A stretch of DNA of 64,000 nt from Bacteroides luhongzhouii (GTDB lineage Bacteria > Bacteroidota > Bacteroidia > Bacteroidales > Bacteroidaceae): positions 3,534,001 to 3,598,000 of the forward strand of contig NZ_CP059973.1 of the NCBI RefSeq assembly GCF_009193295.2, read 5' to 3'. Position 1 is the first letter of the stretch; each line of letters opens with the position of its first letter. The notes beneath the pieces were generated by a model. The model saw only the letters and a list, made by a program, of their open reading frames with translations. It ran no database searches and was not told the origin of the DNA. Shown here in pieces: positions 3,661 through 62,093 of the stretch. A program made the translations under genes and the position numbers.

Positions 3661-3697
3661 AATATAATATACCTATTGTGTCTGTTCTAACAACCCC

Positions 3698-3729: not shown

Positions 3730-3763
3730 TTTATTGATTATTAACTTAGCAGGGACAGTGGGA

Positions 3764-3846: not shown

Positions 3847-3972
3847 GAGGCGGATATATGCTTCATTTCGGTAAGAAGCAAGGTGAACACTGCTGATCCT
3901 CCGGCTGAAGAGCCGTAACCACCAGGCAAAGCGAAAAGAAAGCCGGGGCGGGGAGAGGTTTTCTCCGGATGG

Positions 3973-4008
3973 ATAAAAAGAAAGGAGGGAATTGCGACTC
4001 CCTCCTTT
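3973..4008 (-). terminator. Intrinsic terminator of PUL 1
   Basis: A perfect 10-bp stem (3981-3990 with 3999-4008) encloses an 8-base loop and is followed on the minus strand by a short T-run (CTTTTTAT). It lies about 85 bases after the stop of the last gene of the PUL (4091) and is the best candidate for the end of that operon. Confidence 0.8.
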
Positions 4009-4090
4009 GTGTGCAGTTTAATTGAAACTACTTTATCATTAACTCTGTAAAGATACGACATTCGAAAGCGAAAGTCAAGTCTTTGGGAGT

Positions 4091-5557: not shown

Positions 5558-5569
5558 GTTCTTTCTTTT

Positions 5570-7141: not shown

Positions 7142-7160
7142 GCTGTTTTCGTTTTAAAGA

Positions 7161-8651: not shown

Positions 8652-8671
8652 TACTGTACGTTTTAAGGTGA

Positions 8672-45771: not shown

Positions 45772-47631
45772 ATGAAAAAGACTTTTACTTATCTTTCTTT
45801 TATCATCTTCTTGGGGTGGTTTCCCTTGCTTTTTGCGGGAGAAATTTATGTATCCCTGCAGGGGAATGATAAGAATCCCGGGACAAAGGAAGCCCCGTTT
45901 AATACATTAAACCGGGCAATCAAACAGGCTCGTGAATGGCGTAGACTGAATCGGCCGGAAGTAGCCGGAGGAATTTATATTCGTTTGGAAGAGGGTGTTT
46001 ATGCCCAGCGTAATTCTCTGTTTCTTCGTCCGGAAGATAGTGGAACGCCCGATTCTCCAACGGTGATTTGTGCAGTAGATGGTGCTCATCCTGTGATTAG
46101 TGGTGGAGTTGCTGTTACGGGATGGAAGCGTGGATGTAATCATCCGGCAATTCCTGAAAAGCTAAGGCAGAAGATATGGTCGGCAGAGGCTCCCCTAATA
46201 GGAAATAGAAGAGTCGAAACCCGACAAATGTGGGTGAATGGTCATAAAGTTCAAAGAGCTGCTCAATTTCCTGACGGAGGATGGGAACGAATGATTGACT
46301 TCAATCCGGAAGAGCAAACAATTACAATTCCCGTTTCTCAAAGTGTAAATCCGAAAAGACTTCAAAGTGCCGGTCAACTAGAAATGATTGTTCATCAACG
46401 TTGGGCGATTGCTATTTTGCGTGTGAAAAGTATAGACGCGAAAGATGGACAAGCTGTAGTTCGCTTCCATGAACCCGAAAGTCACCTGGAGTTTGCGCAT
46501 CCCTGGCCGCAACCCGTCATCGGAGGAGAGAAAGGCAATTCTTCCTTCTGCCTGACCAATGCACTGGAATTGCTGGACCAACCCGGTGAATGGTTTCAGG
46601 AATATCCTTCCGGCACGATTTACTACTATCCGCAGGCAGACGAAAATATGGAAACAGCTGAAGTGATTATCCCTGCCTTGGAAACTTTAGTGACCATAGA
46701 CGGTACATTGTCCCGTCCGGTAGAGCATATACAATTTGACGGAATTACTTTTGAGCATACCTCCTGGATGCGTCCTTCTTATCAGGGACACGTCACCTTG
46801 CAAGGGGGATTTCCTTTATTGGATGCCTATAAACTACAAGAACCGGGGCTTCCGGAAAAAGCGGAACTGGAGAATCAAGCCTGGATCACCCGTCCCGAAA
46901 CGGCGATACGTGTAAGAGGTGCCGAACATATTGATTTCAAACATTGCACGTTCCGTCATTTATCGTCCACCGGACTGGATTATGAATGGGCCGTTACTGC
47001 ATCGAGCGTCGAAGATTGTCAATTTACGGATATTGGAGGAACGGCTTTACTGGTCGGCGCATTTCCGGACGGAGGATTTGAGACGCATATTCCTTTTATT
47101 CCTGCTGACGTACGGGAATTATGTTCTCATATTACTATCAGAAACAATTTCATAAGTAATGTGACTAACGAAGACTGGGGATGTGTAGGTATCGGCGCCG
47201 GATATGTCAGAAACATGGATATTTCTTATAATGAAGTTTGCCATCTGAACTATTCAGGGATTTGTGTAGGCTGGGGATGGACATCGCTGGAGAGCGGAAT
47301 GTGCAACAACCGGATAGAAGCAAACTATGTACATCACTTTGCCCGTCGGCTATACGATGCAGGCGGTCTGTATACTCTTTCCAACCAACCGGGTTCCGTC
47401 ATGCGAAATAACCGGATCGAACATTTAATCGAAGCCCCCTACGCTACGAATGACCGGGCTTTTTATATCTATCTGGATGAAGCTACGGACGGATATACAA
47501 TGGAGAACAACTGGTGTCCCTCTGAACGTTTTGATTCGAACCGCCCCGGGAAAAAGAACGTGTGGAAGAATAACGGGCCTCAAGTGGCGGACAGTATTAA
47601 GTACAAAGCCGGAAGAATAAAGCAAGATTGA
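45772..47631 (+). CDS. Secreted right-handed parallel beta-helix protein, probable glycosidase
   Basis: A 619-residue exported protein (signal peptide about 1-22). The mature start 'EIYVSLQGNDKNPGTKEAPFNTLNRAIKQARE' is the usual beginning of secreted beta-helix carbohydrate enzymes. Further on are the helix rungs ('HIDFKHCTFRHLSSTGLDYEW', 'NISYNEV'-like turns and 'NRIEANYVHHFARRLYDAGGLYTL'). The overall architecture resembles families such as GH141 or GH120, but I cannot assign one. It lies upstream of a GH31 gene in the same direction, so both may act on one glycan. Catalytic residues were not identified. Confidence 0.7.
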   Translation: MKKTFTYLSFIIFLGWFPLLFAGEIYVSLQGNDKNPGTKEAPFNTLNRAIKQAREWRRLNRPEVAGGIYIRLEEGVYAQRNSLFLRPEDSGTPDSPTVICAVDGAHPVISGGVAVTGWKRGCNHPAIPEKLRQKIWSAEAPLIGNRRVETRQMWVNGHKVQRAAQFPDGGWERMIDFNPEEQTITIPVSQSVNPKRLQSAGQLEMIVHQRWAIAILRVKSIDAKDGQAVVRFHEPESHLEFAHPWPQPVIGGEKGNSSFCLTNALELLDQPGEWFQEYPSGTIYYYPQADENMETAEVIIPALETLVTIDGTLSRPVEHIQFDGITFEHTSWMRPSYQGHVTLQGGFPLLDAYKLQEPGLPEKAELENQAWITRPETAIRVRGAEHIDFKHCTFRHLSSTGLDYEWAVTASSVEDCQFTDIGGTALLVGAFPDGGFETHIPFIPADVRELCSHITIRNNFISNVTNEDWGCVGIGAGYVRNMDISYNEVCHLNYSGICVGWGWTSLESGMCNNRIEANYVHHFARRLYDAGGLYTLSNQPGSVMRNNRIEHLIEAPYATNDRAFYIYLDEATDGYTMENNWCPSERFDSNRPGKKNVWKNNGPQVADSIKYKAGRIKQD

Positions 47632-47765: not shown

Positions 47766-50012
47766 ATGAAACCAACGAACTACCACTTATTTGATTTCCT
47801 TGATTTCGATACCGAGTTATCAAGGAATGAGTCGCTTTGGAAAGCATACAAGCCAACGGCTGTTTATGAAAAGGAAGGAGATATTTACGTAGCAGTTCCC
47901 TTTCAGAAGCAAAAGCTGGCTAACGATATGATGGCGGATACCGATGTTCCCCAGGAGGAATATACGTTAATCATCCGTCAGTATAACATCGGAATCACCC
48001 GCTTGTTTCTTGGCTTCGGCAATTATGTACTGACAGATGAGTCGGAAATGCTGCAATTCAGTGACCGGATTCAGAAAGTGCCCCTGTTTATAAAAGAACA
48101 AAAAGGGAAATGGATTCTTTCGACAGAAGACGGAACGAAGCGTGCCGTTATCAATGTGGAAGAGCCTCTATTAGACCGATGGAGCGAATTGCTTCCCGAC
48201 CCTCAAGAAACGCTTGACATCACTTTATACCCTGACGGAAAACGTGAAATCCGCTTGTCAGCCTACGACCATTTTTCGCCTCCCCGTTACGATGCGCTAC
48301 CTGTTGCCTTTTGCAAACGCGACGGTCGGAAAGAACGTGCAACACTTTCTTTTGAATGTAAGCCCGATGAATGTTTTGCCGGAACCGGAGAGCGTTTCTT
48401 TAAAATGGACTTAAGCGGACAGACTTTCTTCCTGAAAAACCAGGACGGACAAGGAGTCAATAACCGGCGTACCTACAAAAATATCCCCTTCTATCTATCC
48501 AGCCGAATGTATGGAACATTCTACCATACATGTGCTCATAGCAAGCTCTCGCTGGCCGGACATTCCACCCGTTCCGTCCAGTTTCTAAGCGACCAGGCAT
48601 TGTTGGATGTATTTGTGATAGGCGGTGATACGATGGAAGATATTCTTCGCGGTTATCGTGACCTGACCGGCTATCCGTCTATGCCGCCTCTTTGGAGTTT
48701 TGGCGTTTGGATGAGCCGTATGACTTATTTCAGTGCCGATGAAGTAGACGAAATATGCGACCGCATGCGTGCCGAACATTATCCCTGTGATGTAATTCAT
48801 CTGGATACGGGCTGGTTCCGTACCGATTGGCTCTGCGAATGGAAATTCAATGAAGAGCGGTTCCCCGATCCGAAAGGATTCATCGGGCGGTTGAAAAAGA
48901 ACGGCTATCGTGTTTCTTTATGGCAACTTCCATACGTTGCAGAAAATGCAGAGCAGATTAATGAAGCCAGAGCCAATGATTATATAGCCCCATTGACCAA
49001 ACAACAAGCGACCGATGGTTCCAACTTCTCCGCCCTGGATTATGCCGGAACAATCGACTTTACTTATCCGAAAGCAACCGAATGGTACAAAGGACTATTG
49101 AAACAACTCCTGGATATGGGAGTAACCTGTATCAAAACCGATTTCGGTGAAAACATCCACATGGATGCCCTCTATAAAGGCATGAAACCGGAATTGTTGA
49201 ATAACCTGTATGCCTTGCTTTATCAAAAGGCCGCTTACGAAATTACGAAAGAAGTGACAGGTGACGGCATTGTCTGGGCACGTTCCGCATGGGCGGGATG
49301 CCAGCGTTATCCTTTGCATTGGGGAGGCGATTCATGCAGTTCCTGGGATGGAATGGCAGGTTCTCTGAAAGGCGGTCTGCATTTCGGCCTGTCGGGATTT
49401 GCTTTTTGGAGCCATGATGTTCCCGGCTTCCATACATTGCCCAATTTTATGAACTCGGTAGTAGCAGATGATGTGTACATGCGCTGGACCCAATTCGGCG
49501 TATTCACATCGCATATCCGTTATCATGGAACCAACAAGCGTGAACCCTGGCACTATCCGGCCATAGCTCCGTTGGTGAAAAAGTGGTGGAAATTGCGTTA
49601 TTCGCTCATTCCATACATCATAGAACAAAGTAAACTAGCTATAGAAAGCGGCTATCCGCTCTTGCAGGCACTCATTCTGCATCATCCGGAAGATAAACTT
49701 TGTTGGCATGTGGATGATGAATACTATTTCGGCAATGATTTCCTGGTAGCTCCGGTGATGAACAGCGAGAACCGTCGAGATATCTATCTTCCCGAAGGAA
49801 AATGGGTGAACTTCTTTACGGGAGAACATCTGGAAGGAGCACGCTGGTTGAAAGACGTATATGTTCCATTGGAAGAAATGCCCGTATATGTGCGTGAAAA
49901 TGCCGTGATACCCATCTATCCGGAAGACGTGGACTGTACGGATGAAATGGATTTAAGCAAGAGCATAGCTCTACGCATAGATAATGATTATAAAGGATTT
50001 TGGAATAGATAA
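47766..50012 (+). CDS. Glycoside hydrolase family 31, alpha-xylosidase-like
   Basis: A 748-residue GH31 enzyme without a signal peptide, so probably cytoplasmic. The nucleophile Asp459 lies in 'CIKTDFGE' and the acid/base Asp522 in 'HWGGDSCSSWDGM'. Other family blocks are 'PPLWSFGVWMSRMTYFSADEVDEICDRMR' and 'CDVIHLDTGWF'. The KTDFGE form of the nucleophile motif and the cytoplasmic location resemble YicI-type alpha-xylosidases, which remove alpha-xylose from short oligosaccharides. Alpha-glucosidase remains possible. The gene lies just upstream of the corrinoid methyltransferase genes but is separated from them by a 111-base palindromic element. Confidence 0.88.
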   Translation: MKPTNYHLFDFLDFDTELSRNESLWKAYKPTAVYEKEGDIYVAVPFQKQKLANDMMADTDVPQEEYTLIIRQYNIGITRLFLGFGNYVLTDESEMLQFSDRIQKVPLFIKEQKGKWILSTEDGTKRAVINVEEPLLDRWSELLPDPQETLDITLYPDGKREIRLSAYDHFSPPRYDALPVAFCKRDGRKERATLSFECKPDECFAGTGERFFKMDLSGQTFFLKNQDGQGVNNRRTYKNIPFYLSSRMYGTFYHTCAHSKLSLAGHSTRSVQFLSDQALLDVFVIGGDTMEDILRGYRDLTGYPSMPPLWSFGVWMSRMTYFSADEVDEICDRMRAEHYPCDVIHLDTGWFRTDWLCEWKFNEERFPDPKGFIGRLKKNGYRVSLWQLPYVAENAEQINEARANDYIAPLTKQQATDGSNFSALDYAGTIDFTYPKATEWYKGLLKQLLDMGVTCIKTDFGENIHMDALYKGMKPELLNNLYALLYQKAAYEITKEVTGDGIVWARSAWAGCQRYPLHWGGDSCSSWDGMAGSLKGGLHFGLSGFAFWSHDVPGFHTLPNFMNSVVADDVYMRWTQFGVFTSHIRYHGTNKREPWHYPAIAPLVKKWWKLRYSLIPYIIEQSKLAIESGYPLLQALILHHPEDKLCWHVDDEYYFGNDFLVAPVMNSENRRDIYLPEGKWVNFFTGEHLEGARWLKDVYVPLEEMPVYVRENAVIPIYPEDVDCTDEMDLSKSIALRIDNDYKGFWNR

Positions 50013-50156: not shown

Positions 50157-51965
50157 ATGAAAACATGGAAGAGTAATTTAGAAGAAACAAAACAACGTTA
50201 TATAAATTGGTGGAACCATAAAGGAATCATTCTCAATATGTGGGAACACTTCCAGGAAGGAGTGCAACCACATGCAGAGATAGTACCTCCCGCGCCGGCA
50301 AAAGATTTGTCGCAAAAATGGTTCGACCCTCAATGGAGAGCTGAATATCTGGACTGGTACGTAGCGCACAGCAGTCTGAAAGCGGATATTCTTCCGGTTG
50401 CGAATACCCAACTGGGTCCCGGTTCTCTAGCCGCCATCTTAGGCGGAGTGTTTGAAGGCGGGGAAGATACCATCTGGATTCATCCCAACCCGGATTTCAC
50501 CGATGAAATAGTCTTTAACCCCGAACACCCGAACTGGATTCTTCATAAAGAACTCCTGAAAGCCTGTAAAGCGAAAGCCAACGGACACTACTTTGTCGGT
50601 ATGCCCGACCTGATGGAAGGACTGGATGTTCTGGCCGCACTGAAAGGAACGGATAGGGTATTACTGGACACAGTGATGCAGCCCGAAATCCTGGAACAAC
50701 AGATGCAGCAAATCAATGACATCTACTTCAAAGTATTTGATGAACTATACGACATCATCCGTGAAGGCGACGAGATGGCTTTCTGTTATTTCTCGTCCTG
50801 GGCTCCCGGAAAGATGAGTAAACTGCAAAGTGATATTTCGACTATGATTAGCCAGGATGATTATCGTCGGTTTGTGCAACCTTTTATTCGTGAACAATGT
50901 CAGAAGATTGATTATACCCTTTATCATCTGGATGGAGTGGGAGCCATGCATCACCTGCCTGCCTTGCTTGAAATTGAAGAATTGAATGCGATTCAATGGA
51001 CTCCCGGAGTGGGTGAACCACAGGGTGGTTCTCCCAAATGGTACGATTTGTATAAGAAGATTCTTGCAGGCGGAAAGAGCGTGATGGCTTGCTGGGTGAC
51101 ATTAGACGAACTAAAACCTCTATTGGATCATATCGGCGCGGACGGTGTACATTTGGAAATGGATTTCCATAACGAAAAGGAAGTGGAACAGGCTATGCGG
51201 ATTGTCGAAGAATATACCGGCTCTTCTACCTCTGTAAATACCAATGAACATCAACAGGATGCAGACTTGGCAGCTACCGGACAGGAACGTATTTGTATAC
51301 GGGAAGAACAACACGAGGAAGAGGATAAACTGCAACCTCTGTATGAAGCCATTGTTGCCGGGAAACTGGAACCTGCGGTTGAAATCACCCGGCAAGCCAT
51401 TGCAGAAGGAGTAGCTCCCCAAATGATTATCAATAATTATATGATTAAAGCAATGGGTGAAGTGGGACAACGTTTCCAGGATGGAAAAGCTTTTGTTCCT
51501 CAACTGTTGATGGCAGGACGTGCCATGAAAGGGGCTTTGGAACTACTGAAACCTTTATTGGCAGGAAGTGCTTCCACTACAATCGGTAAGATTGTCATCG
51601 GTACAGTGAAAGGAGATCTCCATGATATTGGTAAAAACCTGGTGGCTTCCATGCTGGAGGGTTGCGGCTTTGAAGTCATTAATATTGGTATTGATGTGAC
51701 TTGTGACAAGTTTGTGGAAGCTGTGAAGGAAAATCATGCTGACATCTTGTGCATGAGCGCATTGCTGACTACTACCATGATGTATATGAAAGAGGTTATC
51801 CAGGCATTGGAAGAGGCCGGTATTCGTAATCAGGTGAAAGTGATGATTGGCGGAGCACCCGTCAGTCAGGGTTTTGCTGACGAAATCGGCGCGGACGGAT
51901 ATAGTGACAATGCGAATACAGCCGTGGCAGTTGCCAAAGAACTGATCCGTGTAATCCGTGCCTAA
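50157..51965 (+). CDS. URO-D-type methyltransferase fused to a corrinoid-binding protein
   Basis: A cytoplasmic protein of 602 residues with two parts. Residues about 1-345 belong to the uroporphyrinogen decarboxylase superfamily branch of corrinoid-dependent methyltransferases. Its 'LYHLDGVGAMHHLPALLEI' block has no His-x-Cys zinc motif. After an acidic linker, residues about 375-602 are a MetH/MtaC-type corrinoid protein: a helical cap (about 380-465) and a B12 domain with 'GDLHDIGKN', where His489 is the expected cobalt ligand. Normally these are two proteins. I chose the ATG at 50157; the longer frame starts at a TTG (50127) inside the palindromic element. The methyl donor is unknown. The symporter gene follows after 46 bases. 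Confidence 0.85.
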   Translation: MKTWKSNLEETKQRYINWWNHKGIILNMWEHFQEGVQPHAEIVPPAPAKDLSQKWFDPQWRAEYLDWYVAHSSLKADILPVANTQLGPGSLAAILGGVFEGGEDTIWIHPNPDFTDEIVFNPEHPNWILHKELLKACKAKANGHYFVGMPDLMEGLDVLAALKGTDRVLLDTVMQPEILEQQMQQINDIYFKVFDELYDIIREGDEMAFCYFSSWAPGKMSKLQSDISTMISQDDYRRFVQPFIREQCQKIDYTLYHLDGVGAMHHLPALLEIEELNAIQWTPGVGEPQGGSPKWYDLYKKILAGGKSVMACWVTLDELKPLLDHIGADGVHLEMDFHNEKEVEQAMRIVEEYTGSSTSVNTNEHQQDADLAATGQERICIREEQHEEEDKLQPLYEAIVAGKLEPAVEITRQAIAEGVAPQMIINNYMIKAMGEVGQRFQDGKAFVPQLLMAGRAMKGALELLKPLLAGSASTTIGKIVIGTVKGDLHDIGKNLVASMLEGCGFEVINIGIDVTCDKFVEAVKENHADILCMSALLTTTMMYMKEVIQALEEAGIRNQVKVMIGGAPVSQGFADEIGADGYSDNANTAVAVAKELIRVIRA

Positions 51966-52011
51966 AAGAAAATTAGATTTAAACTTACGTTACTTATTTA
52001 ATACTTGAATT

Positions 52012-53583
52012 ATGCATGTGAAATTCTTAGAGACATTAGATTGGAGTATTCTGATTGCCTACTTCCTGATTTTGATAGCTATTGGTATATGGGCAAGTTC
52101 AAAACGAAAAAAGGGGAGTAGTCTTTTCCTTGCGGAGAATTCGTTGAGATGGTATCATATCGGCTTTTCCATGTGGGGGACGAATGTCGGACCTTCCATG
52201 TTGATTGCTTCCGCAAGTGCCGGATTTACTACCGGTATTGTTTCGGGGAATTATGCTTGGTATGCATTTGTCTTTATATGTCTGCTTGCTTTTGTCTTTG
52301 CTCCCCGATATTTGGGTAGTCGCATCACGACATTGCCCGAATTTATGGGAAAACGTTTCGGGCAATCTACCCGTAACATCCTTGCCTGGTATACCATTAT
52401 TACCATTCTTATTTCATGGCTTGCATTGACCTTATTTGCCGGTGGAGTCCTGATCCGTCAGGTCTTCGATATTCCTATGTGGCAATCGGCATTGCTGTTA
52501 CTTGTCATCTCCGCTTTCTTCACGATGCTCGGCGGACTGAAAGCTGTGGCCTACACGAATGTATATCAAATGATACTGTTGATTGTAGTATCAGCCACAC
52601 TGGCTATCATGGGAATCTATCAAGTGGGTGGTGTAGGAGCACTGGTGGACGCCGTTCCGGCGGATTACTGGAATCTTTTCCATCCAAATGATGACCCGGC
52701 TTTTCCTTGGCTACCTATTATCCTGGGTTATCCTATTATGGGAGTTTGGTTTTGGTGTACGGATCAGTCGATGGTGCAACCGGTTCTTGCTGCCAGGAAT
52801 CTGAAAGAAGGACAGATGGGAACTAACTTTACCGGATGGCTGAAAATCTTGGATGTACCTCTTTACATTCTTCCCGGCATTATCTGCCTCGCTTTATTCC
52901 CACAATTGGAGAATCCCGATGAGGCTTACATGACAATGGTGACTCATCTGTTCCCGACAGGAATGGTCGGCTTGGTATTGGCTGTATTGACAGCAGCATT
53001 GGTAAGTACTGTCGGCTCTGCATTGAATGCATTAAGTACGGTATTCACGATGGATATCTATGTGAAGAAAATCCGACCGCAGGCAAAACAAAGAGAGATT
53101 ATCAGAGTGGGACAAGTGGTTACGGTAGTCGGTGCACTGATTTCTGTGATAATAACCATAGCGATCGACAGTATCAAGGGACTGAATCTATTTAATGTTT
53201 TCCAGTCTGTACTGGGATTTATAGCTCCTCCGATGGCAGCCGTATTCCTCTTTGGCGTGTTCTGGAAACGCACCACTACTCTGGCAGCTAATATGGCTCT
53301 GACATTGGGAACAGTGTTCAGTATCGGAGTAGGAATCTTGTATTTATGGGTGTTTCCGGCAGAACAATATGATGCCTGGCCTCATTTTATGCTGCTTTCC
53401 TTCTACTTATTCGTTATCATCGGAATAGGTATGATAGTAGTTAGCCTGTGGGATAAGTCTCCGCAATTGGGAACCTTGAATATGGAAAAGATAGAGGACA
53501 AACCTGCACGAATTGTTCTTATCCTATGGGGATTACTTATTGTGACCATGATCGGGCTTTACATCTTCTTCAATGGCCACTAG
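52012..53583 (+). CDS. Sodium:solute symporter (SSS family)
   Basis: A 523-residue inner-membrane transporter with about 13 hydrophobic helices. SSS-family features include 'DWSILIAYFLILIAIGIWASSKRKKGSSLFLAENSLRWYHIGFSMWGTNVGPSMLIASASAGF' at the start, 'PEFMGKRFGQSTR' and 'ALVSTVGSALNALSTVFTMDIY' in the sodium-site region. Such carriers take up sugars, amino acids, betaines or other small molecules with Na+. Its place between the methyltransferase-corrinoid gene and the other corrinoid genes makes it the likely importer of the methylated substrate, if that module works as proposed. The subfamily (SGLT-like) suggests a sugar, but only weakly. Confidence 0.9.
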   Translation: MHVKFLETLDWSILIAYFLILIAIGIWASSKRKKGSSLFLAENSLRWYHIGFSMWGTNVGPSMLIASASAGFTTGIVSGNYAWYAFVFICLLAFVFAPRYLGSRITTLPEFMGKRFGQSTRNILAWYTIITILISWLALTLFAGGVLIRQVFDIPMWQSALLLLVISAFFTMLGGLKAVAYTNVYQMILLIVVSATLAIMGIYQVGGVGALVDAVPADYWNLFHPNDDPAFPWLPIILGYPIMGVWFWCTDQSMVQPVLAARNLKEGQMGTNFTGWLKILDVPLYILPGIICLALFPQLENPDEAYMTMVTHLFPTGMVGLVLAVLTAALVSTVGSALNALSTVFTMDIYVKKIRPQAKQREIIRVGQVVTVVGALISVIITIAIDSIKGLNLFNVFQSVLGFIAPPMAAVFLFGVFWKRTTTLAANMALTLGTVFSIGVGILYLWVFPAEQYDAWPHFMLLSFYLFVIIGIGMIVVSLWDKSPQLGTLNMEKIEDKPARIVLILWGLLIVTMIGLYIFFNGH

Positions 53584-53606
53584 TTTTTTATTCACTACAG
53601 AGGATG

Positions 53607-53656
53607 CAGAGGACACAGAGATTATTATCTAATAATAAAAGACTCTGTGTCCTCTG
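53607..53656. terminator. Bidirectional hairpin between convergent genes
   Basis: A perfect 14-bp stem (53607-53620 with 53643-53656) and a 22-base AT-rich loop, between the symporter stop (53583) and the stop of the minus-strand gene at 53665. T-runs are weak, but the position fits a shared terminator. Confidence 0.65.
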
Positions 53657-53664
53657 TGGTGAAA

Positions 53665-54342
53665 CTATTTTCTACGAAAACAATTTTCATACGTACACAG
53701 CCCGCAAGTATATTCCAACTTACGGACATGTGAACCCACTCCAATAATACCACTTACAGATTTGATGGGAATCATCAGGCTGGAATCTGTCAACTGAATA
53801 CCACAGGGTGAAGCGACCGGAAATAAGGAGAATAGTTTTTGTTGTTCCGATACGTGCCATCCGCAATAACCAGGGCTGTATCTGTTAGTGTGCTTCCAAC
53901 CTCTCTTTTCGATAAATGCAGCCAACTCCTCTTCCATGCAATCAGCAGCCTTCTCTGCAATGATGCTCCCCAATGAGTCTGCTATATATACTTTCACCAT
54001 GTCGTTCTCTTGCTGAAGCAGATGTTGAAACTCCTCAAATTCGACTCCGGCAGTTGCGGTAAAAAAGGCAAAGGTTTCCGAACCCCGTAGTTGGCGGGCA
54101 ATAGTTTTACCGATTGAGAGAATCGTATCTTTTACAGCCAGTGTTGCTTTTTCAGTGTCAAGCAGTCCGTCAGTGATGAAAAAGAAAAAACGGGGACGAA
54201 GAAGGGGAGTGATACGGTCAAGTAACATATTTATTTCTTCTATGACCATTCCATCCGGCATAGAATCTTTATATCCCATCGTCTCGTAAATTTCAGACGA
54301 TGGGATTTGCAGTTTCTGATAAGTAAGTTCCTGTTCAACCAT
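53665..54342 (-). CDS. Corrinoid-reactivation-like protein (MetH activation-domain family)
   Basis: A 225-residue protein that resembles the C-terminal activation domain of cobalamin-dependent methionine synthase, which repairs oxidised cob(II)alamin by reductive methylation. The signature is 'NRYSPGYCGWHVSEQQKLFSLF' followed by 'GIQLTDSSLMIPIKSVSGIIG'. In MetH this block binds S-adenosylmethionine. The C-terminus carries 'CGLCTYENC', three Cys that could bind a metal or iron-sulfur centre. It overlaps the methyltransferase gene upstream by 8 bases. It probably keeps the corrinoid protein encoded at 50157-51965 active; that is inferred from family and neighbours. Confidence 0.78.
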   Translation of the reverse strand: MVEQELTYQKLQIPSSEIYETMGYKDSMPDGMVIEEINMLLDRITPLLRPRFFFFITDGLLDTEKATLAVKDTILSIGKTIARQLRGSETFAFFTATAGVEFEEFQHLLQQENDMVKVYIADSLGSIIAEKAADCMEEELAAFIEKRGWKHTNRYSPGYCGWHVSEQQKLFSLFPVASPCGIQLTDSSLMIPIKSVSGIIGVGSHVRKLEYTCGLCTYENCFRRK

Positions 54343-55345
54343 TATTGAACTCTTCCAATGCGGTATAAAATGCGTCTATATTAATAGAAGGTGTATGTGG
54401 CGGAATATCACAACCACTTGACAATACGAAATTCGGGTATGCACGGGTAGCTTCCAATAGTTGCAAAGCCGCTTCCTTCATAGTCTCCGGACCTGCCATC
54501 TTGAAAAGGTTCACCGGGTCCAGATTTCCCATTGCCAGTGCATCGGCCGGAACCTCTTTCAACGCTTCCTCCATCTTAATTTTATTCCCGAAATGATAAG
54601 CGGCTGCACCGGTATAAACCATCGCTTGTGTGCAATTCCCTGTGTTTCCGCAATTATGAAGCACTACGGCAAAGTGATCATCCTGTACCTTCTCTATTAT
54701 TTCTTTCACAAATAAAGAAGAATATTGCAGGCAATCTTCGTTGGATAACAATCCCGCAGCAGGTTCAGCCATGATTACACCGTTCACACCGGTTGCTTTC
54801 AATGCCATGCAATAGCGGGTGATGAAGTCGCTGCATTTTCTTAATAACGTATTGGCTGCATCGGGATTAATATAAATCAGCATCATGATTTCCGACATAT
54901 CATACAAACGTCCGGCCAGCGAGTAAGGACCGATGCAACCGGCAAAAACCGGACAGTCTGTTATATTTCTGGCTGTCAGCATATTCGCTTTAAGATATTC
55001 TGGGATTCTTCCTTTATTCAATGCCGGAACTTCCAGCTTTTCAATAGCAGCTTCATCCGTCAGCAAACGGCCGGAAACACTGGGCACCTCATTTTCCGGA
55101 AAGATAATCTCTGCCCCGAAAGCTTCCGCTTCTACCGTCAGATCCATGATAACGGTTGCTGCCGCAGCCGGATACTTGTCACAAAGAGCTTTGATAGCCT
55201 CATAATGAACCTGTCCGTTTGTTACCGCATCATGCACCGTTTTCCCGATAATTTCGATACCCGGATGTGTCATGATCGGAATTGCAATCGTTTCCTTACG
55301 TTGGATCGTTTGGCTGATCCATTCTTTCATATTCAGTTTACCCAT
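54335..55345 (-). CDS. URO-D-type, MtaA-like corrinoid methyltransferase
   Basis: A 336-residue cytoplasmic protein of the uroporphyrinogen decarboxylase superfamily, methyltransferase branch. Unlike the N-terminal half of the 50157-51965 fusion it has the zinc signature of MtaA/MtbA: His230 and Cys232 in 'VLHNCGN', with Cys312 in 'SSGCDIPPHTP'. In that group the zinc activates a thiol that takes the methyl group from the corrinoid. 'AMGNLDP' matches the conserved loop before the last strand. Bacteroides are not expected to have coenzyme M, so the acceptor could be homocysteine or another thiol. True haem-pathway HemE is unlikely because of the zinc motif. Confidence 0.82.
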   Translation of the reverse strand: MGKLNMKEWISQTIQRKETIAIPIMTHPGIEIIGKTVHDAVTNGQVHYEAIKALCDKYPAAAATVIMDLTVEAEAFGAEIIFPENEVPSVSGRLLTDEAAIEKLEVPALNKGRIPEYLKANMLTARNITDCPVFAGCIGPYSLAGRLYDMSEIMMLIYINPDAANTLLRKCSDFITRYCMALKATGVNGVIMAEPAAGLLSNEDCLQYSSLFVKEIIEKVQDDHFAVVLHNCGNTGNCTQAMVYTGAAAYHFGNKIKMEEALKEVPADALAMGNLDPVNLFKMAGPETMKEAALQLLEATRAYPNFVLSSGCDIPPHTPSINIDAFYTALEEFNNG

Positions 55346-55495: not shown

Positions 55496-55930
55496 TTATT
55501 TTACCGGAATCTTATCAATACGGTTCTGATGGCGTCCGCCGTCAAATTTGGTAGAGAAAAACTCTGTCAAAATCATATCCGCTTCTTCAGTGCTGATGAA
55601 GCGTCCCGGCATAACCAGTACATTAGCGTCGTTGTGCTGACGAGCCAGATGCGCGATTTCTGCATTCCAGCAGAGAGCAGCACGTACCCCTTGGTGCTTG
55701 TTCAGCGTCATATTGATTCCGTTTCCACTGCCGCAGATAGCGATACCGGGATAACATTCTCCCGATTCCACTGCAAGAGCCAGCGGATGAGCATAATCCG
55801 GATAGTCTACGCTTGCGGTAGAGTTCGTTCCGAAATCCTTGTAAGCCCAGCCTTTTGCTTCCAGCCAGCCGCGAACATATTCTTTCAGTTCAAAACCGGC
55901 ATGGTCGCATGCTAATCCGATTGTTTTCAT
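55496..55930 (-). CDS. rpiB: Ribose-5-phosphate isomerase B
   Basis: A 144-residue enzyme that interconverts ribulose 5-phosphate and ribose 5-phosphate in the pentose phosphate pathway. Visible are 'LACDHAGFELK' at residues 6-16 and the catalytic 'ICGSGNGINMTLNK' with Cys66, the same position as in the E. coli enzyme. The length is normal. The start overlaps the transketolase stop by one base, so translation is probably coupled. It belongs to the arabinose operon by position and supplies the last step before transketolase chemistry. Confidence 0.93.
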   Translation of the reverse strand: MKTIGLACDHAGFELKEYVRGWLEAKGWAYKDFGTNSTASVDYPDYAHPLALAVESGECYPGIAICGSGNGINMTLNKHQGVRAALCWNAEIAHLARQHNDANVLVMPGRFISTEEADMILTEFFSTKFDGGRHQNRIDKIPVK

Positions 55931-57939
55931 TAGAGCATTGCTTTTACTTGGTTATATACGTTCTCGGCAGTAAATCCGAGTTTCTCGTCCAATACTTTAT
56001 AAGGAGCGGAGAAACCGAAAGATTCCAATCCCCAAACTTTACCGTGGCAACCTACCAGACCTTGAAGAGTGACAGGCAGACCGGCAGTCATACCGAAAAT
56101 CTTTGCATCTGCCGGAAGAATAGCTTCCTGATATTCTTTCGGTTGGTTGCGGAACAGACCTTCAGACGGAGCAGATACAATGCGTACCTTCACGCCATCT
56201 TTGCGAAGTAACTCTGTGCCGGCTACCAATGTAGCCACCTCAGAACCTGAAGCCACCAGGATAACATCCGGATTTTCGTCGGAACCTGCTACGATATAAG
56301 CACCCTTGGCTGCCTGTTCATAGTCTGTTCCTGCCGGTAAATTGGCAATATTCTGACGGGAGAAGATCAATCCTGTCGGAGTAGACATATTTTCCATAGC
56401 AAGTCTCCAAGCGATGGTTGTCTCTTCTGCATCAGCCGGACGAAGTACCAGCATAGAGTTATGTCCCTTGTGGTTTTTCAGTTTTTCCATCAGGCGGATT
56501 TGAGCTTCCTGTTCTACCGGTTCGTGAGTAGGACCGTCTTCACCTACGCGGAATGCGTCGTGTGTCCAGATGAATTTCACCGGTTGTTCCATCAAAGCAG
56601 CCATACGTACGGCAGGTTTCATGTAGTCGGAGAATACGAAGAATGTACCGCAAGCTGCGATCACACCACCGTGTAAAGACATACCGATACAGATACAAGC
56701 CATTGACAATTCAGATACACCTGCCTGGAAGAATGCTCCGCTGAAATCACCTTTCTTGAAAGAATGAGTCTTTTTCAGGAAACCGTCAGTCTTGTCAGAA
56801 TTAGAAAGGTCGGCCGAAGCAACGATCATATTTTCTACCTGTGTAGCAAGTGCGCCCAATACGGTTGCAGATGCAGCACGAGTAGCGCTACCTGCTTTCT
56901 GTTCGATAGCAGCCCAGTCCACTTTCGGAGCTTTGCCCGAGAAGAAGAGTTCCAGTTTTGCAGCCAGTTCCGGGTTTGCTTTCGCCCATGCAGCTTTCTT
57001 TGCATACTTTTCAGCAACGATCTTTTTCAGTTCTTCTGCTCTTTTTGCATACAGTTCGGCTACTTCCGGGAATATAACGAACGGGTCAGTAGGGTCACCA
57101 CCCAGATTCTTGATTGTATTTACATAAGCGTCGCCACCGAGAGGAGCACCGTGTGTAGCGCAGTTAGCTTCATAGCTGCTGCCGTCTGCCTTGCGTGCAC
57201 CTTTACCCATTACGGTTTTACCGATAATCAGTGTCGGACGTTCTTTTTCAGCTTGTGCTTCTTTGATTGCCGTACGGATTTCGTCAGGATCATTACCGTT
57301 GATACTAAGTACGTTCCATCCCCATGCTTCATATTTCATGGCAGTATCTTCGACGGTTACATCTTTCGTTTCTGTAGAAAGCTGAATATCGTTAGAGTCA
57401 TAGAACATAATCAGGTTGTCCAATCCCAGTGCACCGGCAATACGTCCGGAACCTTGAGAGATTTCTTCCTGAATACCACCGTCAGAGATGTATGCGTAAA
57501 TGGTCTGGTTCATCACCTCGTCGAAACGGGCTTTCAAGAATTTGGCAGCGATAGCAGCACCTACTGCAAAAGTGTGTCCTTGTCCCAGCGGACCGGAAGT
57601 ATTTTCGATGCTACGCATGATGTCCACTTCAGGATGTCCCGGAGTAGGGCTTCCCCATTGACGGAATTCTTTCAGTTCGTCCAAAGTGAATTTTCCTGTC
57701 AATGCCAGCGTAGAATAAAGCATCGGAGACATGTGGCCCGGGTCGAGGAAAAAGCGGTCACGTCCTTCCCAACGGGGATTTTCAGGATCGTATACTAGAA
57801 ACTCAGAGAAGAGTACATTTACAAAATCAGCACCACCCATGGCGCCACCCGGGTGACCGGAATTGGCTTTCTCAACCATTGAAGCAGCAAGAATACGGAT
57901 GTTATCCGCTGCACGATTCATAAGTTTGTTATCGTTCAT
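55930..57939 (-). CDS. tkt: Transketolase
   Basis: A 669-residue thiamine-diphosphate enzyme that moves two-carbon units between sugar phosphates. The N-terminal 'MVEKANSGHPGGAMGGADF' is the standard start. The TPP/Mg motif lies around 'YISDGGIQEEISQGSGRIAGALGLDNLIMFYDSNDIQ' (about residues 150-186). The pyrimidine-binding part includes 'GVSELSMACICIGMSLHGG', and 'WTHDAFRVGEDGPTHEPVEQ' is the sugar-phosphate site. The full length is present. It joins arabinose breakdown to glycolysis and has its own promoter-like site upstream, so it can also be expressed alone. Confidence 0.96.
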   Translation of the reverse strand: MNDNKLMNRAADNIRILAASMVEKANSGHPGGAMGGADFVNVLFSEFLVYDPENPRWEGRDRFFLDPGHMSPMLYSTLALTGKFTLDELKEFRQWGSPTPGHPEVDIMRSIENTSGPLGQGHTFAVGAAIAAKFLKARFDEVMNQTIYAYISDGGIQEEISQGSGRIAGALGLDNLIMFYDSNDIQLSTETKDVTVEDTAMKYEAWGWNVLSINGNDPDEIRTAIKEAQAEKERPTLIIGKTVMGKGARKADGSSYEANCATHGAPLGGDAYVNTIKNLGGDPTDPFVIFPEVAELYAKRAEELKKIVAEKYAKKAAWAKANPELAAKLELFFSGKAPKVDWAAIEQKAGSATRAASATVLGALATQVENMIVASADLSNSDKTDGFLKKTHSFKKGDFSGAFFQAGVSELSMACICIGMSLHGGVIAACGTFFVFSDYMKPAVRMAALMEQPVKFIWTHDAFRVGEDGPTHEPVEQEAQIRLMEKLKNHKGHNSMLVLRPADAEETTIAWRLAMENMSTPTGLIFSRQNIANLPAGTDYEQAAKGAYIVAGSDENPDVILVASGSEVATLVAGTELLRKDGVKVRIVSAPSEGLFRNQPKEYQEAILPADAKIFGMTAGLPVTLQGLVGCHGKVWGLESFGFSAPYKVLDEKLGFTAENVYNQVKAML

Positions 57940-57976
57940 ATCATTAAAATTTAATTGATTTCTGTCAGATTGTTCG

Positions 57977-58007
57977 CAAAGATAACTCTTTATGTGGATT
58001 TAACAAT
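57977..58007 (-). promoter_or_regulatory. Bacteroides-type promoter of tkt-rpiB
   Basis: On the minus strand ATTG (58007-58004), 19 bases, then TATCTTTG (57984-57977), about 40 bases upstream of the transketolase ATG. Confidence 0.5.
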
Positions 58008-58081
58008 CCAAAAGAGCTATCTTTTTTATCGACAATTTTACGGCCTTCTTGTTTGTGATACAATAAGTAATTGTCCTAAAA

Positions 58082-59626
58082 CTACTGTAACTCTAAAGTA
58101 ACAATGGATTTAGCAGGAAGTTTTACCTTCATTGTACCTTTATTGATTTTTACCTCTTTGAAAGGCGCCGGTTTTACAATATCAGGTTTTTCAAAAGAAT
58201 TGTAATCGGTCAGTTTGGCAGAGGTCAGAATCTCTCCGACAGCTTTCTTAGCTTTCGTATCACCCAGATTGATGGTGATTTCCTGTGCTTCGTCAGTATC
58301 TACATTAGAAAGAGAAAGGTGAATCACTCCATCTTTGTTTTTGGAAGCTGTGGCGCTCACCATTGGTACCGTGCGGTTATCACGTACACTTATCTTTTCG
58401 CAGGTCAGGTCGATAGGAAGATACGTGGCATCCTGGTGTACTTTATACATTTTGAAGACATAATAAGTAGGAGTCAACACCATTTCTTTGTCTTTTGTCA
58501 GGATCATCGATTGAAGTACATTGACAATCTGTGCGATATTTGCCATCTTCAGACGGTCGGTATATTTGTGGAATACATCAAGACTTAAAGAAGCCACGAA
58601 AGCATCACGCAATGTGTTCTGCTGATACAGATGTCCTTTGATGGTTCCCGGTTCCTCATCCCACCAGGTTCCCCATTCGTCCAGTAAGAGAGCGATTTTC
58701 TTGTCCTTGTCATATTTGTCCATGATGGCACAATGTTTTTTTAGTACATCTTCCACTTCCAGACATTTGCCCATCGTCCAGTAATAATCATCCTTGTTGA
58801 ATTGAGTGGCTGATCCTTTGCTGCCACTCCATCCGGTTACGGTATAATAGTGCAGAGAAAGACCGTCCATCCGATGTCCTACACGATTCATCAATACATC
58901 TGTCCATTTGTAATCATAGTCGCTTGCGCCACTGGCAATCTTGAACAAACGGTTGCCGTCATAATTACGGCAATAAGTAGAATAACGGCGATATAAGTCT
59001 GCGTAATATTCCGGACGCATGCTGCCGCCGCATCCCCAGCTTTCATTTCCTACACCGAGATATTTCAGTTTCCATGCTTTGTCTCGACCATTCTTACGGC
59101 GAAGGTTGGCCATAGGGGAGTCTCCGTCAGAAGTTATATATTCTACCCATTTGGCAAGCTCTTCCACTGTGCCGCTACCTACATTTCCGCTCACGTATGG
59201 TTCGCAACCCAGCATCTCGCAAAGATTCAAAAACTCGTGTGTTCCGAAACTGTTATCTTCAATGGTTCCGCCCCAGTTGTTATTCACCATCTTCGGACGG
59301 TTCTCTTTCGGACCAATGCCGTCCATCCAGTGGTATTCATCGGCAAAGCATCCGCCCGGCCAGCGAAGAACGGGAACGGACAAGTCTTTTAGTGCATTGA
59401 ATACATCTGTGCGATATCCCTTGATGTTGGGAATATCCGAGTTTTCGCCTACCCAAAGACCACCGTAGATACATGAACCCAGATGTTCGGCAAACTGGCC
59501 GTAAATTTCCTTCGGTATGATTTCTTTGCCTTGATCGGCATGTACGGTTATGGTAGCACTCTTTTGTGCAGAAAGAGATACGGATGCTGCCAGAAAAGCC
59601 GTGCTGACTAATAGTTTTGCTTTCAT
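58082..59626 (-). CDS. GH51 alpha-L-arabinofuranosidase
   Basis: A 514-residue exported enzyme (signal peptide about residues 1-20) that releases alpha-L-arabinofuranose from arabinan or arabinoxylan oligosaccharides. The acid/base Glu195 is in '[11 protein letters not shown]' and the nucleophile Glu317 in '[11 protein letters not shown]'. The blocks '[20 protein letters not shown]' and '[23 protein letters not shown]' are typical of GH51. A C-terminal beta-sandwich ends in '[10 protein letters not shown]'. The Sec-type signal suggests a periplasmic location. It is encoded after the GH127 gene (64-base gap), and both feed arabinose to the isomerase and kinase genes of the cluster. Confidence 0.93.
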
Positions 59627-59690
59627 AAATGGTATTTGTTTAATGATTATATAGATGTTTGATTTTGATGATGATTACTTTGAGGGGCAT

Positions 59691-62093
59691 TTATTTTAGC
59701 AAACGCACTTCATAAATGGCAGAGGTCCATTCCGTCCCGTCAGGGATAAAACGTATCGGACAACTACCTGTATTCAGTTTTTGAGGCAGAACATAAGAAA
59801 GGGTTATGAAATCGTCTTTATCCGCTTCACTGATAGTAGGATGAACAGCCAACTTTTCGTCATTCAGAAGAATAGCCACTTTGTTACGGTCATCTTTCCG
59901 TACTGTAATCTGGAGGCGGCTTGCTTCCTCTTTCACTTTCAGCTGATAGCCGAACCAACCTTTGGCACGTCGGAAATGCCGGTCTTTATTCGTTCCTGTT
60001 TCTGCCCGCTCATACTGGATGTCATGGTCAGACTCCGGCTGCTGTTCGCCGGGGAAGATAAGGTCAATGGTTTGATTAGCCAATTCTGTTGCTTTTCGTT
60101 CAGCCGTTGCCATCTCTTCCTGAATCGCTTTAAATTGCTCTTCACTTGCCTGTCGGAAATAAACGGCATAACGGGAATTATGCAGGCGGAAGAACGGAAC
60201 GAGTTCCAATGCTTTGCCTTGTGCAGGATAAACCTCTCCGTTATAGCTGAAAGTAATCCGGCTATTCTGTTCTTTCTGAAGAGACTTGCAGATTGAATCT
60301 GGATTTCCTATCAGCATCGGAACTTCTTGCAAAGGAATTTGTTTGCCATGAGCGATATGTCCGCCACGGCTGTCGTCGGCATATAGACCGTCAAGATGTT
60401 CTGTGCTCGTGGAAGCTGCAAGAACGATCGGGCCATATAAGAAAGCATAATAATCTTTCTTGTCGGGAATTTGTTCCACGCTGACTTTCATCGGCAAGTT
60501 GAAAGTAATGACATCTCCTTTTCTCCATTTGCGGGAGAGAGGAAGATACTGGTTACCTTTTGCCATAACGAATATTTTTCTTTTTCCATTGATGCTGACG
60601 CTATATCCTTTGGATTGGTTCGCCCATTCCGGAATACGTATCATTAAAGTACGTTTTTTCTTAGGCGCTTCATCTATTCGTAAAGTTACCTTGCCGTCAT
60701 CGGGGAAACGGGTTTCCTGTGTCAAAGTAATGCCTTGCTCTTTCCAGGTCAGTTGTGAAGGGATGAAGAGATTGACATAAAGTGTGTCTTTCTGATACGC
60801 ATAGATAAATTCACCGTATTTGGTATGATTCTCCAGGCCTGAACCTACACAGCACCACATTGATGTTTCCGGTTGTGAGTACACACGATAGTGTCCCGGA
60901 CGCATAGGAGTGAAGTAGACAAATCCACCTTTATCCGGCTCTTGTGACGCTAGGATATGATTGTAAAGCGCACGTTCGTAATAGTTTACGTAGTTGGGGT
61001 CAGGTTCGTTCGTATGATGGGGATTGTGAGAATTCTGATAAAGCATTTTAGTAAGACGGAGCATGTTGTAAGTATTACAGGTCTCCGGTCCTTGAACGTC
61101 GTTTAGCATGGACGTGAAGTTATCCGACGGATGAAAATGTTCGCGGACGCTATTTCCTCCGATGCAGACAGAACGGTGATTGACTACCGTGTTCCAGAAA
61201 AAACGGGCGGCATGATCCCATTCTGCAGCATGATTCCAATTCTTGTCATCTTGTGAGAGTTCGGCAATTCGCTTGTAGCCGATCACTTTCGGAATCTGTG
61301 TGTTGGCGTGCATCCCCGTCAACTTATCTTCCTCTTTGATAAGCGGGTCTAAGATAAGCTTGTGAGAGAAACGGCGTGCCAGTTCCAGATATTTTTTGTT
61401 GCCTGTGATTTCGGCCACATCAGCGAAAGTCTCGTTTAATCCGCCATGTTCGCTGCGAAGCATATCCTGCATTTGTCCGTCGCTCAAACCGGAAGTGATG
61501 TCAATCATCCAGTCTGTAAAAGCAATAAGCATTTGGCGTGCAAGGTCGCTTCCTGCATAGAGATATGCATCCCGCAATCCGGCGTAAGTCTTATGTATAT
61601 TGTATAGAGGCACCCATTTGCCGTTAAGGTCGAAACCTCCGGCACGGATCTTTCCTACTTTTATATCTTTCCAAAGTTGGAGGCTTCCCGGAGTTCCACC
61701 GATGAATCCTGTGCCGACAGTTTGTTGTGCCCGTTTCAACTCATTCAGCATGTAGTGGAGGCGATTATAGACTGCGGTATCTCCGGTGGCGGCATACATC
61801 ATGGAAAGCGCGGATAAATAATGTCCGCCGATATGTCCGTCCAATCCGGTATTTTCCCAATTGGTGTAGCTGGGGGCTTTAGGCTGTAACCCGGCTTCGC
61901 GGAGAAAAGGAGCGAGCAGACGGTCGGGGTCTAATGCAAGTATGTAATGTAAATCAGTCTGTTGGGCTTGCAGAAACGGACTATCCAATAGTTTCACATT
62001 CTGTAAGGGGAAGTAAGATACCTGTGGAGTGTTTTGAGCTTTGACCAGTGAGCTGGACAGGACAAGTGCAAGTATGAACGAGGTGGTTTTCAT
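59691..62093 (-). CDS. GH127 beta-L-arabinofuranosidase-like enzyme
   Basis: An 800-residue exported protein (signal peptide about 1-19) of the GH127/DUF1680 family, an (alpha/alpha)6 barrel with zinc-bound cysteines. The metal and catalytic residues known from HypBA1 are present at nearly the same numbers: Glu337 and Cys339 in 'GPETCNTYNMLRL', and Cys414-Cys415 in 'MWCCVGSGLENH', one of which should be the nucleophile. C-terminal beta domains complete the length. The family cleaves beta-L-arabinofuranosides. The place in the arabinose cluster fits, though other activities exist in GH127. Confidence 0.88.
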   Translation of the reverse strand: MKTTSFILALVLSSSLVKAQNTPQVSYFPLQNVKLLDSPFLQAQQTDLHYILALDPDRLLAPFLREAGLQPKAPSYTNWENTGLDGHIGGHYLSALSMMYAATGDTAVYNRLHYMLNELKRAQQTVGTGFIGGTPGSLQLWKDIKVGKIRAGGFDLNGKWVPLYNIHKTYAGLRDAYLYAGSDLARQMLIAFTDWMIDITSGLSDGQMQDMLRSEHGGLNETFADVAEITGNKKYLELARRFSHKLILDPLIKEEDKLTGMHANTQIPKVIGYKRIAELSQDDKNWNHAAEWDHAARFFWNTVVNHRSVCIGGNSVREHFHPSDNFTSMLNDVQGPETCNTYNMLRLTKMLYQNSHNPHHTNEPDPNYVNYYERALYNHILASQEPDKGGFVYFTPMRPGHYRVYSQPETSMWCCVGSGLENHTKYGEFIYAYQKDTLYVNLFIPSQLTWKEQGITLTQETRFPDDGKVTLRIDEAPKKKRTLMIRIPEWANQSKGYSVSINGKRKIFVMAKGNQYLPLSRKWRKGDVITFNLPMKVSVEQIPDKKDYYAFLYGPIVLAASTSTEHLDGLYADDSRGGHIAHGKQIPLQEVPMLIGNPDSICKSLQKEQNSRITFSYNGEVYPAQGKALELVPFFRLHNSRYAVYFRQASEEQFKAIQEEMATAERKATELANQTIDLIFPGEQQPESDHDIQYERAETGTNKDRHFRRAKGWFGYQLKVKEEASRLQITVRKDDRNKVAILLNDEKLAVHPTISEADKDDFITLSYVLPQKLNTGSCPIRFIPDGTEWTSAIYEVRLLK

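Follow-up and report, generated by a model that had tools for sequence, protein, structure and literature searches.

The explanation we lean towards for six genes between positions 45772 and 55345 of the stretch of Bacteroides luhongzhouii DNA analysed here (64,000 nucleotides; the window) is a system for O-methyl-sugar demethylation and methionine synthesis, its substrate being a sugar from RG-II, a plant cell-wall pectin, most likely 2-O-methyl-xylose. An exported GH141 enzyme would free a methylated RG-II fragment, most likely 2-O-methyl-D-xylose-alpha-1,3-L-fucose, which a symporter would bring into the cell and a cytoplasmic GH31 enzyme would cleave, before or after demethylation. The substrate methyltransferase domain (MT1) would demethylate 2-O-methyl-xylose, loading the methyl group onto cob(I)alamin bound by the corrinoid domain to which MT1 is fused. 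A thiol methyltransferase would then pass it to homocysteine to give methionine; in B. luhongzhouii this would be MetH or the second URO-D-type protein, whereas relatives would use a MetH-type domain built into the fused protein. A MetH-activation-like protein would re-methylate inactivated corrinoid with SAM as donor.

A six-gene unit around a fused methyltransferase and corrinoid protein

The sequence-only reading had described four genes (50157..55345) as a possible corrinoid methyl-transfer unit. The group is real and composes such a set, but the unit is bigger, with GH141 and GH31 genes directly upstream. The GH141 gene (45772..47631, plus strand; PF21231, GH141_M) matched PDB 5MQP, BT_1002, with an E value of 1.7e-176, and by sequence its product is a paralogue of BT_1002, the RG-II chain A fucosidase. 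Hydropathy indicated an N-terminal hydrophobic segment and the protein is probably exported; the catalytic Asp pair was retained in 52 of 54 aligned sequences, the other two having gaps. A BT_1002 orthologue is also found in the same genome, and its identity to this GH141 of 45%, together with the presence of both in most genomes, argues against the favoured explanation in that their functions may differ. The adjacent gene (47766..50012, plus strand) carries Pfam GH31 domains of the alpha-xylosidase/alpha-glucosidase type; no signal peptide was seen by hydropathy and the product was read as cytoplasmic. Its best NCBIfam model was the alpha-xylosidase PRK10658 (488 bits, cut-off 606). The closest structure, PDB 5F7C, aligned over almost the full length and is labelled alpha-glucosidase, which counts against the favoured explanation.

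MT1 (50157..51281, plus strand; His257-x-Asp259; alignment of 33 sequences) gave no match among Pfam families or PDB sequences. Its AF2 model resembles UroD/MtbA-type folds; the UroD-superfamily fold was seen in this prediction only, and no sequence family was found. Profile comparison detected no sequence kinship between MT1 and the second URO-D protein, and a residue-level alignment of their zinc sites was unstable and carries no weight as proof. Across 395 genomes of the phylum, among which the organism's own family has few and in some of which candidates were partly scored, the MT1 profile matched its own genome alone.

The corrinoid-binding domain fused to MT1 (51282..51965, plus strand; PF02607, PF02310) bears the cobalamin motif DxHxxG (DLHDIGK), found in 76/76 sequences. 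MtgC/MtbC-type NCBIfam models matched it below cut-off and it also resembles a trimethylamine corrinoid protein. This likeness would suit an ordinary methylamine, betaine, methanol or aryl-ether methyltransferase, and BT_0340/0342/0343 of B. thetaiotaomicron have been labelled 'Mta' (PMC8941943, excerpt). We consider such an enzyme very improbable: corrinoid domains do not tell the substrate, MT1 matches no family in Pfam and no sequence in PDB, and the neighbours are sugar hydrolases.

Downstream lies a sodium/solute symporter gene (52012..53583, plus strand; PF00474, TIGR00813 above cut-off) with 12 TM-like segments by hydropathy, whose nearest equivalog, PRK10484, scored below cut-off; it is presumed to import the methylated sugar. 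On the minus strand follow a short MetH-activation-like protein (53665..54342; PF02965, profile positions 110-264 of 273), presumed to be a SAM-dependent corrinoid reactivator, and the second URO-D-type methyltransferase (54335..55345), which is MtaA/MtbA-like, has His230, Cys232 and Cys312, and is presumed to be a methyl-corrinoid:thiol transferase. A Pfam domain scan of the cluster's genes showed no ATP-dependent RACE protein and no folate methyltransferase, and no Rfam element, cobalamin riboswitch included, reached gathering scores within the window.

The cluster was found in Bacteroides faecis, Phocaeicola vulgatus ATCC 8482 and Prevotella. The neighbourhood comparison proposed earlier revealed a GH141-GH31-methyltransferase/corrinoid-symporter order that recurs in all three genera, and exactly so in 26 of 80 fetched loci. 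GH141-GH31 beside MT1 was the most frequent context, and GH141 or GH31 was present in 57 of the 76 loci having an MT1-plus-corrinoid ORF. Genes for an aldo/keto reductase, an amidohydrolase and an MDR protein, which could oxidise L-fucose, occurred in 9, 10 and 12 of the 80 loci, respectively; they were given little weight because most of them are separated from the cluster by a gene of 719 residues, a putative EF-G, that recurs in opposite orientation.

The methyl acceptor

A MetH-type homocysteine methyltransferase domain is inserted between MT1 and the corrinoid domain in 65/80 loci, and this fusion points to homocysteine as the system's methyl acceptor. The domain matched PF02574 with E values of 2.4e-88 (L037) and 1.2e-82 (L038), its zinc cysteines were kept in 68/68 and 67/68 sequences (one gap), and over 70 aligned rows its median identity to the MetH of B. 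luhongzhouii was 50%. The methyl-folate domain is absent from the two proteins scanned, L037 and L038, for which Pfam gave S-methyl_trans and two B12 domains alone. The absence of GH141/GH31 from the fetched stretch in 19 of the 65 fused loci weighs against the favoured explanation, although 37 of the 80 stretches are shorter than 18 kb. Two genomes with the fused protein (G291 and G206, both 99% complete) yielded no further homocysteine methyltransferase, no MetE and no MetF. Tentatively, the fused protein may be the sole methionine synthase of some gut and rumen Prevotella relatives, a third kind, in which the methyl of methionine and SAM would come from a pectin O-methyl sugar instead of folate. 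As a point against the favoured explanation, G291 and G206 might be methionine auxotrophs.

The second URO-D protein carries, as read earlier, a URO-D family assignment with His-Cys-Cys ligands. Its scores were below all MtaA/MtbA cut-offs (135.5/244, 123.5/235.4, 114.7/600 and 111.4/400 bits), so by these models it is a relative and no member. HemE was rejected (70.3 bits, cut-off 302.95). The MetH-activation gene adjoins the second URO-D gene in 37/37 genomes having the latter, and the two form an obligate pair, present in 34/34 MT1 genomes versus 2/27 controls. Mutual exclusion between the second URO-D and the fused homocysteine domain, expected if they were interchangeable, failed, as both co-occur. 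Retention of the pair in genomes with a fused homocysteine domain speaks against the favoured explanation and for another acceptor of the second URO-D protein, such as sulfide or another thiol, or for corrinoid reactivation with its partner. The pair also occurs in clusters without MT1 (G245, G704, G149), and a link to methyl-selenide/sulfur metabolism has been drawn for bacterial MtaA-like His-Cys-Cys proteins (PMC10418091, excerpt). We nevertheless regard a non-homocysteine acceptor as the lesser, if serious, possibility: the fusion in 65/80 loci points the whole system to homocysteine, and in the B. luhongzhouii genome no MetE was found and the only homocysteine methyltransferase domain is that of MetH. 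Overall, the earlier proposal that the first URO-D protein takes a methyl group from an import and the second gives it to a thiol, for demethylation of a sugar, betaine or plant ether or for methionine salvage, found partial support.

Linkage to RG-II genes in some relatives and the probable nature of the sugar

BT_1002, the founder of GH141, frees 2-O-Me-Xyl-alpha1,3-Fuc from RG-II (PMC10154630, excerpt), and the bond within this disaccharide is the sole RG-II bond without a known cleavage by B. thetaiotaomicron (PMC7939467, excerpt). An alpha-xylosidase-type GH31 stands next to GH141 in the cluster. In one relative (G806), three genes 76, 70 and 74% identical to the BT_1002-orthologue row of the B. 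luhongzhouii genome continue into GH141-GH31-methyltransferase-corrinoid-symporter, and in G789 and G730 the rhamnosidase of that row lies upstream of the cluster. A BT_1020-like protein is encoded in 3 of the 80 loci, and RG-II-specific enzymes were co-located in G806, G789, G730, G812, L116, L120 and L132; the co-located GH141 of G797 and G767 is roughly 60% identical. A BT1002-like gene (59-85% identity) lay within 25 kb of MT1 in 5/29 genomes having one, for which the chance under uniform placement is 3e-5, or 0.006 counting only the three clear orthologues (G806, G812, G732). The row linkage derives from G-numbered genomes and the BT_1020-like linkage from the three loci; within the 80 loci, relatives of the row amounted to one GH127-like gene (L114, 57%). 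In the B. luhongzhouii genome the RG-II gene row sits elsewhere, outside the window, which argues against the favoured explanation. Also against it, the BT1002 orthologue was not found in 5/34 MT1 genomes and was present in 10/27 MT1-less controls, so that MT1 and RG-II use can occur apart from each other. In its favour, three of four fucosidase genes reported to show differences above 2.8-fold during co-culture (PMC8264420, excerpt) are BT_0338, BT_1002 and BT_0984.

A further point against the favoured explanation is that wild-type B. thetaiotaomicron, annotated with the cluster (BT_0338 to BT_0340, BT_0342, BT_0343), accumulates 2-O-Me-Xyl-alpha1,3-Fuc (PMC7939467, excerpt), which means that in the medium used this strain does not consume all of the disaccharide. 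This would fit demethylation of a non-RG-II sugar, for example an alpha-linked methyl sugar of algae, animals, fungi or bacteria, as would a second cluster in which the same URO-D/activation pair stands with GH26, GH5-type and GH3 genes (L044; similar in L168 and L170). We hold this to be quite improbable given the operon-level linkage to the BT_1002-orthologue row and the BT_1020-like genes in some relatives.

Within RG-II, MT1 might instead act on the 2-O-methyl-L-fucose of chain B, with GH141/GH31 acting on an adjoining part. L-fucose isomerase genes occur in 6/80 loci (checked with Pfam in L125 alone), and the stretch lacks GH141/GH31 in four of the six, but FucI does not separate the two routes because the xylose route also produces L-fucose. 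Another corrinoid cluster (L169, G149) sits with GH29 and GH95-type genes. GH31 enzymes act on alpha-D-glycosides, and GH141-GH31 beside MT1 is the commonest context; we regard the fucose derivative as an unlikely substrate, even though 2-O-methyl-L-fucose is labelled in B. thetaiotaomicron spent medium (PMC7939467, excerpt).

Comparison with known methyl-transfer and RG-II systems

The gene neighbours link the cluster, in some relatives, to the RG-II degradation of B. thetaiotaomicron, as does the relationship of its GH141 to BT_1002. The published enzyme set of that species does not include cleavage of 2-O-Me-Xyl-alpha1,3-Fuc (PMC7939467, excerpt), and excerpts of the B. thetaiotaomicron RG-II literature contained no demethylation of RG-II sugars. 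The cluster is thus a candidate both for the enzyme cutting this bond and for the fate of its methyl group. The P450 demethylase acting on 6-O-methyl-galactose of porphyran (PMC10033563) likewise strips a methyl from a polysaccharide sugar, but it is oxidative and yields formaldehyde, whereas the present cluster would work anaerobically and keep the methyl group for reuse.

With the three-component Mta/Mtv O-demethylases of methanogens and acetogens the cluster shares a UroD-fold substrate methyltransferase (here from a model), a corrinoid protein and a second methyltransferase; it differs in its sugar hydrolases, symporter and MetH-type activation protein, and in that the scan of its genes revealed neither a RACE protein nor a folate methyltransferase. 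No report of corrinoid demethylation of a sugar was among the matches listed, in which subscription journals were thinly covered; if the proposal is true, sugars would join the substrates of corrinoid demethylases. Ruegeria MtgBCD, which couples glycine betaine demethylation to methionine synthesis, is a precedent for a corrinoid demethylase supplying methionine, but the donor is betaine, the bacteria are aerobic and marine, and the excerpt mentions no sugar hydrolases (PMC12478193). If the proposal is true, the methionine supply of common gut bacteria would also be linked to dietary pectin and vitamin B12. Finally, the fused relatives share with MetH the homocysteine domain, the corrinoid domain and the activation protein, whereas MT1 replaces the folate domain, so that the donor would be a sugar ether; if true, this would show MetH rebuilt with a different methyl donor.

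Anatomy and spread of the gene unit

The four ORFs that a sequence-only reading had taken for a possible corrinoid methyl-transfer system were found at their coordinates: a putative substrate methyltransferase domain (MT1, 50157..51281, +) fused to a corrinoid-binding domain (51282..51965, +; B12-binding_2 and B12-binding of Pfam at residues 393-590 of the fused protein), a symporter (52012..53583, +; SSF), a short activation protein (53665-54342, -; C-terminal part of Met_synt_B12) and a second URO-D protein (54335-55345, -; URO-D). This unit is real and conserved across relatives, but it had been drawn too small, omitting a GH141 gene (45772-47631, +) and a GH31 gene (47766-50012, +) directly upstream of the fused methyltransferase. 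The intergenic gaps are 134 bases from GH141 to GH31, 144 from GH31 to MT1 and 46 from the MT1-corrinoid gene to the symporter, and this last pair is convergent with the activation/second URO-D pair, 81 bases away. The region 55496-62093, upstream of the second URO-D gene, carries on the - strand an RpiB gene (Pfam) and, by sequence reading only, transketolase, GH51 and GH127-type genes, which places pentose metabolism beside a putative xylose-releasing system.

Searched at E 1e-60 against 301 family genomes, the fused protein matched 22, of which 14 (own genome included) carry MT1 and 8 the corrinoid part alone; among the 149 genomes of the genus, 21 have MT1. When species genomes were scanned, 191 of the 216 candidates could be confirmed, the best 80 of which were fetched as loci, among them Bacteroides faecis, Phocaeicola vulgatus ATCC 8482, P. 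sartorii and many rumen Prevotella. Eleven of these encode the MT1-corrinoid form and 65 a longer one, MT1-homocysteine methyltransferase (MT)-corrinoid; three others lack the corrinoid part of the long form and one (L109) gave no MT1 ORF. Neighbours were counted over at most 9 kb per side, 37 of the 80 stretches being shorter than 18 kb. GH141 and GH31 were each found in 11/11 MT1-corrinoid and 43/65 long-form loci, the symporter in 10/11 and 36/65, the activation protein in 7/11 and 41/65, and the second URO-D in 7/11 and 42/65. The neighbourhood comparison recovered GH141-GH31-MT1-symporter in exactly that order in 26 of the 80 loci, GH141-GH31-MT1 in 5 more and GH31-MT1 in 3 more. An alternative arrangement, in which MT1, activation and URO-D genes lie on the opposite strand and are followed by GH141-GH31-symporter, was complete in 15. 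The genes sit close together: the median gap is 10 bases both between GH141 and GH31 (49 loci) and between GH31 and MT1 (33 loci), and -4 between the activation and URO-D genes (45 loci). A frameshift splits MT1 in G788 (L167, 11228-13130), a near-identical genome (96-100% in the compared proteins), and reflects either loss or a sequence error.

Substrate and linkage to RG-II genes

The window's GH141 shares 45% identity with the own-genome orthologue of BT_1002, the Bacteroides thetaiotaomicron fucosidase described in PMC10154630 as freeing 2-O-methyl-D-xylose-alpha1,3-L-fucose from chain A of rhamnogalacturonan II (RG-II), with D523 and D564 as catalytic residues. Using a constant offset of 5 in the structure chain, these correspond to D529/D569 of the window protein, a pair kept in 52 of 54 GH141 sequences (two gaps). 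According to PMC7939467, B. thetaiotaomicron cuts 21 of 22 RG-II bonds, the exception being the one within 2-O-Me-Xyl-alpha1,3-Fuc. The GH31, which adjoins GH141, is without signal peptide and has an alpha-xylosidase as its closest curated neighbour; it is the natural candidate for this uncut bond. A sugar ether is the likely methyl donor.

A GH127-like and a rhamnosidase gene flank the BT_1002 orthologue of the own genome and are named BT1003-like and BT1001-like from gene order, BT1003 being presumably a GH127. BT1001 is given as an alpha-rhamnosidase in PMC7939467, and its homologue in genome G806 has rhamnosidase domains. In G806 the same three genes (76, 70 and 74% identity) are followed, in one direction, by a DHDPS-type aldolase, a second symporter, GH141, GH31, MT1, corrinoid protein and symporter. 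G789 has the order rhamnosidase, aldolase, symporter, GH141, GH31 (in two pieces, as also in G008), MT1, corrinoid protein and symporter; G730 shares it, but with other genes separating GH141 from GH31. A GH141 about 60% like BT_1002 lies between symporter and URO-D gene in G797 and G767 (with an internal stop in the latter), and in G812 the BT_1002-orthologue row is at most 20 kb away. A protein resembling BT_1020, an RG-II enzyme, occurs in 3 of the 80 loci, all Prevotella: L120, two genes upstream of MT1 and with Pfam Beta-prop_BT_1020, and L116 and L132 (relatives at 82 and 87%). L-fucose isomerase was found in 6 of the 80.

BT_1002 orthologues (at least 60%) were present in 29/34 MT1 genomes versus 10/27 controls (p 1.4e-4; G799 only partial), and within the genus alone in 17/21 MT1 genomes (p 0.003). 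Three of the five MT1 genomes without one are 99-100% complete.

The DHDPS-family aldolase and second sodium symporter recur near the unit, each in 5 of the 80 loci plus three further genomes (L157, L165, L173, L112, L120, L125, L128, L132), and could handle another RG-II product, e.g. a 2-keto-3-deoxy acid.

Methyl acceptor and the second URO-D/activation pair

In the long form, the domain between MT1 and the corrinoid part is the MetH homocysteine MT (Pfam S-methyl_trans; E-values of 2.4e-88 and 1.2e-82 for the pair of proteins scanned), with its zinc cysteines kept in 68/68 and 67/68 (one gap). Since this domain is fused to MT1 in relatives, homocysteine is the likely acceptor. Two genomes, G291 and G206, each 99% complete, showed a homocysteine MT domain only in the MT1 fusion, and neither MetE, MetF nor a full-length MetH activation domain was found in them; MetF is present in G122 and G005 of the same genus, and was not found in G109 (88% complete). 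If G291 and G206 do make methionine, its methyl group would have to come from a source other than methyl-folate; the sober alternative is that both are methionine auxotrophs. The own-genome MetH is itself split into a 915-residue protein (L176, 1325-4072) and a separate activation protein (C1:3496671-3497507). Among 62 genomes, 57 encode the full-length activation domain within an ORF of 269-370 aa and 2 within a frame longer than 1100 aa; it was not seen in 3.

The second URO-D was present in 34/34 MT1 genomes versus 2/27 same-genus controls (Fisher p 4e-15, uncorrected for kinship), and in G245, which has another corrinoid cluster. Its distribution over the 62 genomes coincides exactly with that of the short activation protein: 37 have both, with the two genes on one contig at most about half a kilobase apart. 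The pair is also kept where the homocysteine domain is fused, and is therefore not merely a substitute for it; it may supply an additional acceptor enzyme or may take part in reactivation.

Elsewhere, the same corrinoid protein-activation-URO-D trio is embedded in a different gene string that also holds GH26, a GH5-type cellulase, GH3 and a distinct URO-D protein of 417-418 aa (L044 of G245, where domains were scanned, and the similar-looking L168 of G704 and L170 of G815), perhaps serving a second methylated sugar. L169 (G149, 2488-10722), with a GH29-type fucosidase, corrinoid protein, URO-D, activation protein, GH95-type gene and a 415 aa ORF URO-D-like by look only, is perhaps a third type, for a methyl-fucose.

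Comparison with B. thetaiotaomicron

In B. thetaiotaomicron, BT_0338 is annotated as a GH141 and BT_0339 as an alpha-xylosidase, and BT_0340, BT_0342 and BT_0343 are labelled 'Mta' in PMC8941943. By gene order, BT_0341 would be the symporter and one of BT_0342/BT_0343 the activation protein. Four fucosidase genes, with BT_0338, BT_1002 (both GH141) and BT_0984 among them, differed more than 2.8-fold in Akkermansia co-culture, as stated in PMC8264420. PMC7939467 reports that the wild type accumulates 2-O-Me-Xyl-alpha1,3-Fuc, and a figure legend there also labels 2-O-Me-fucose in spent medium. That the disaccharide is left over despite the annotated cluster counts against it as the substrate. 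However, a methyl group able to leave only as methionine would cap the flux at the methionine need, and by our estimate a single sugar of this kind in each RG-II unit may already go beyond that need, softening the objection. The unit is most likely a system for O-demethylation of an RG-II methyl-sugar, with transfer of the methyl group to methionine.
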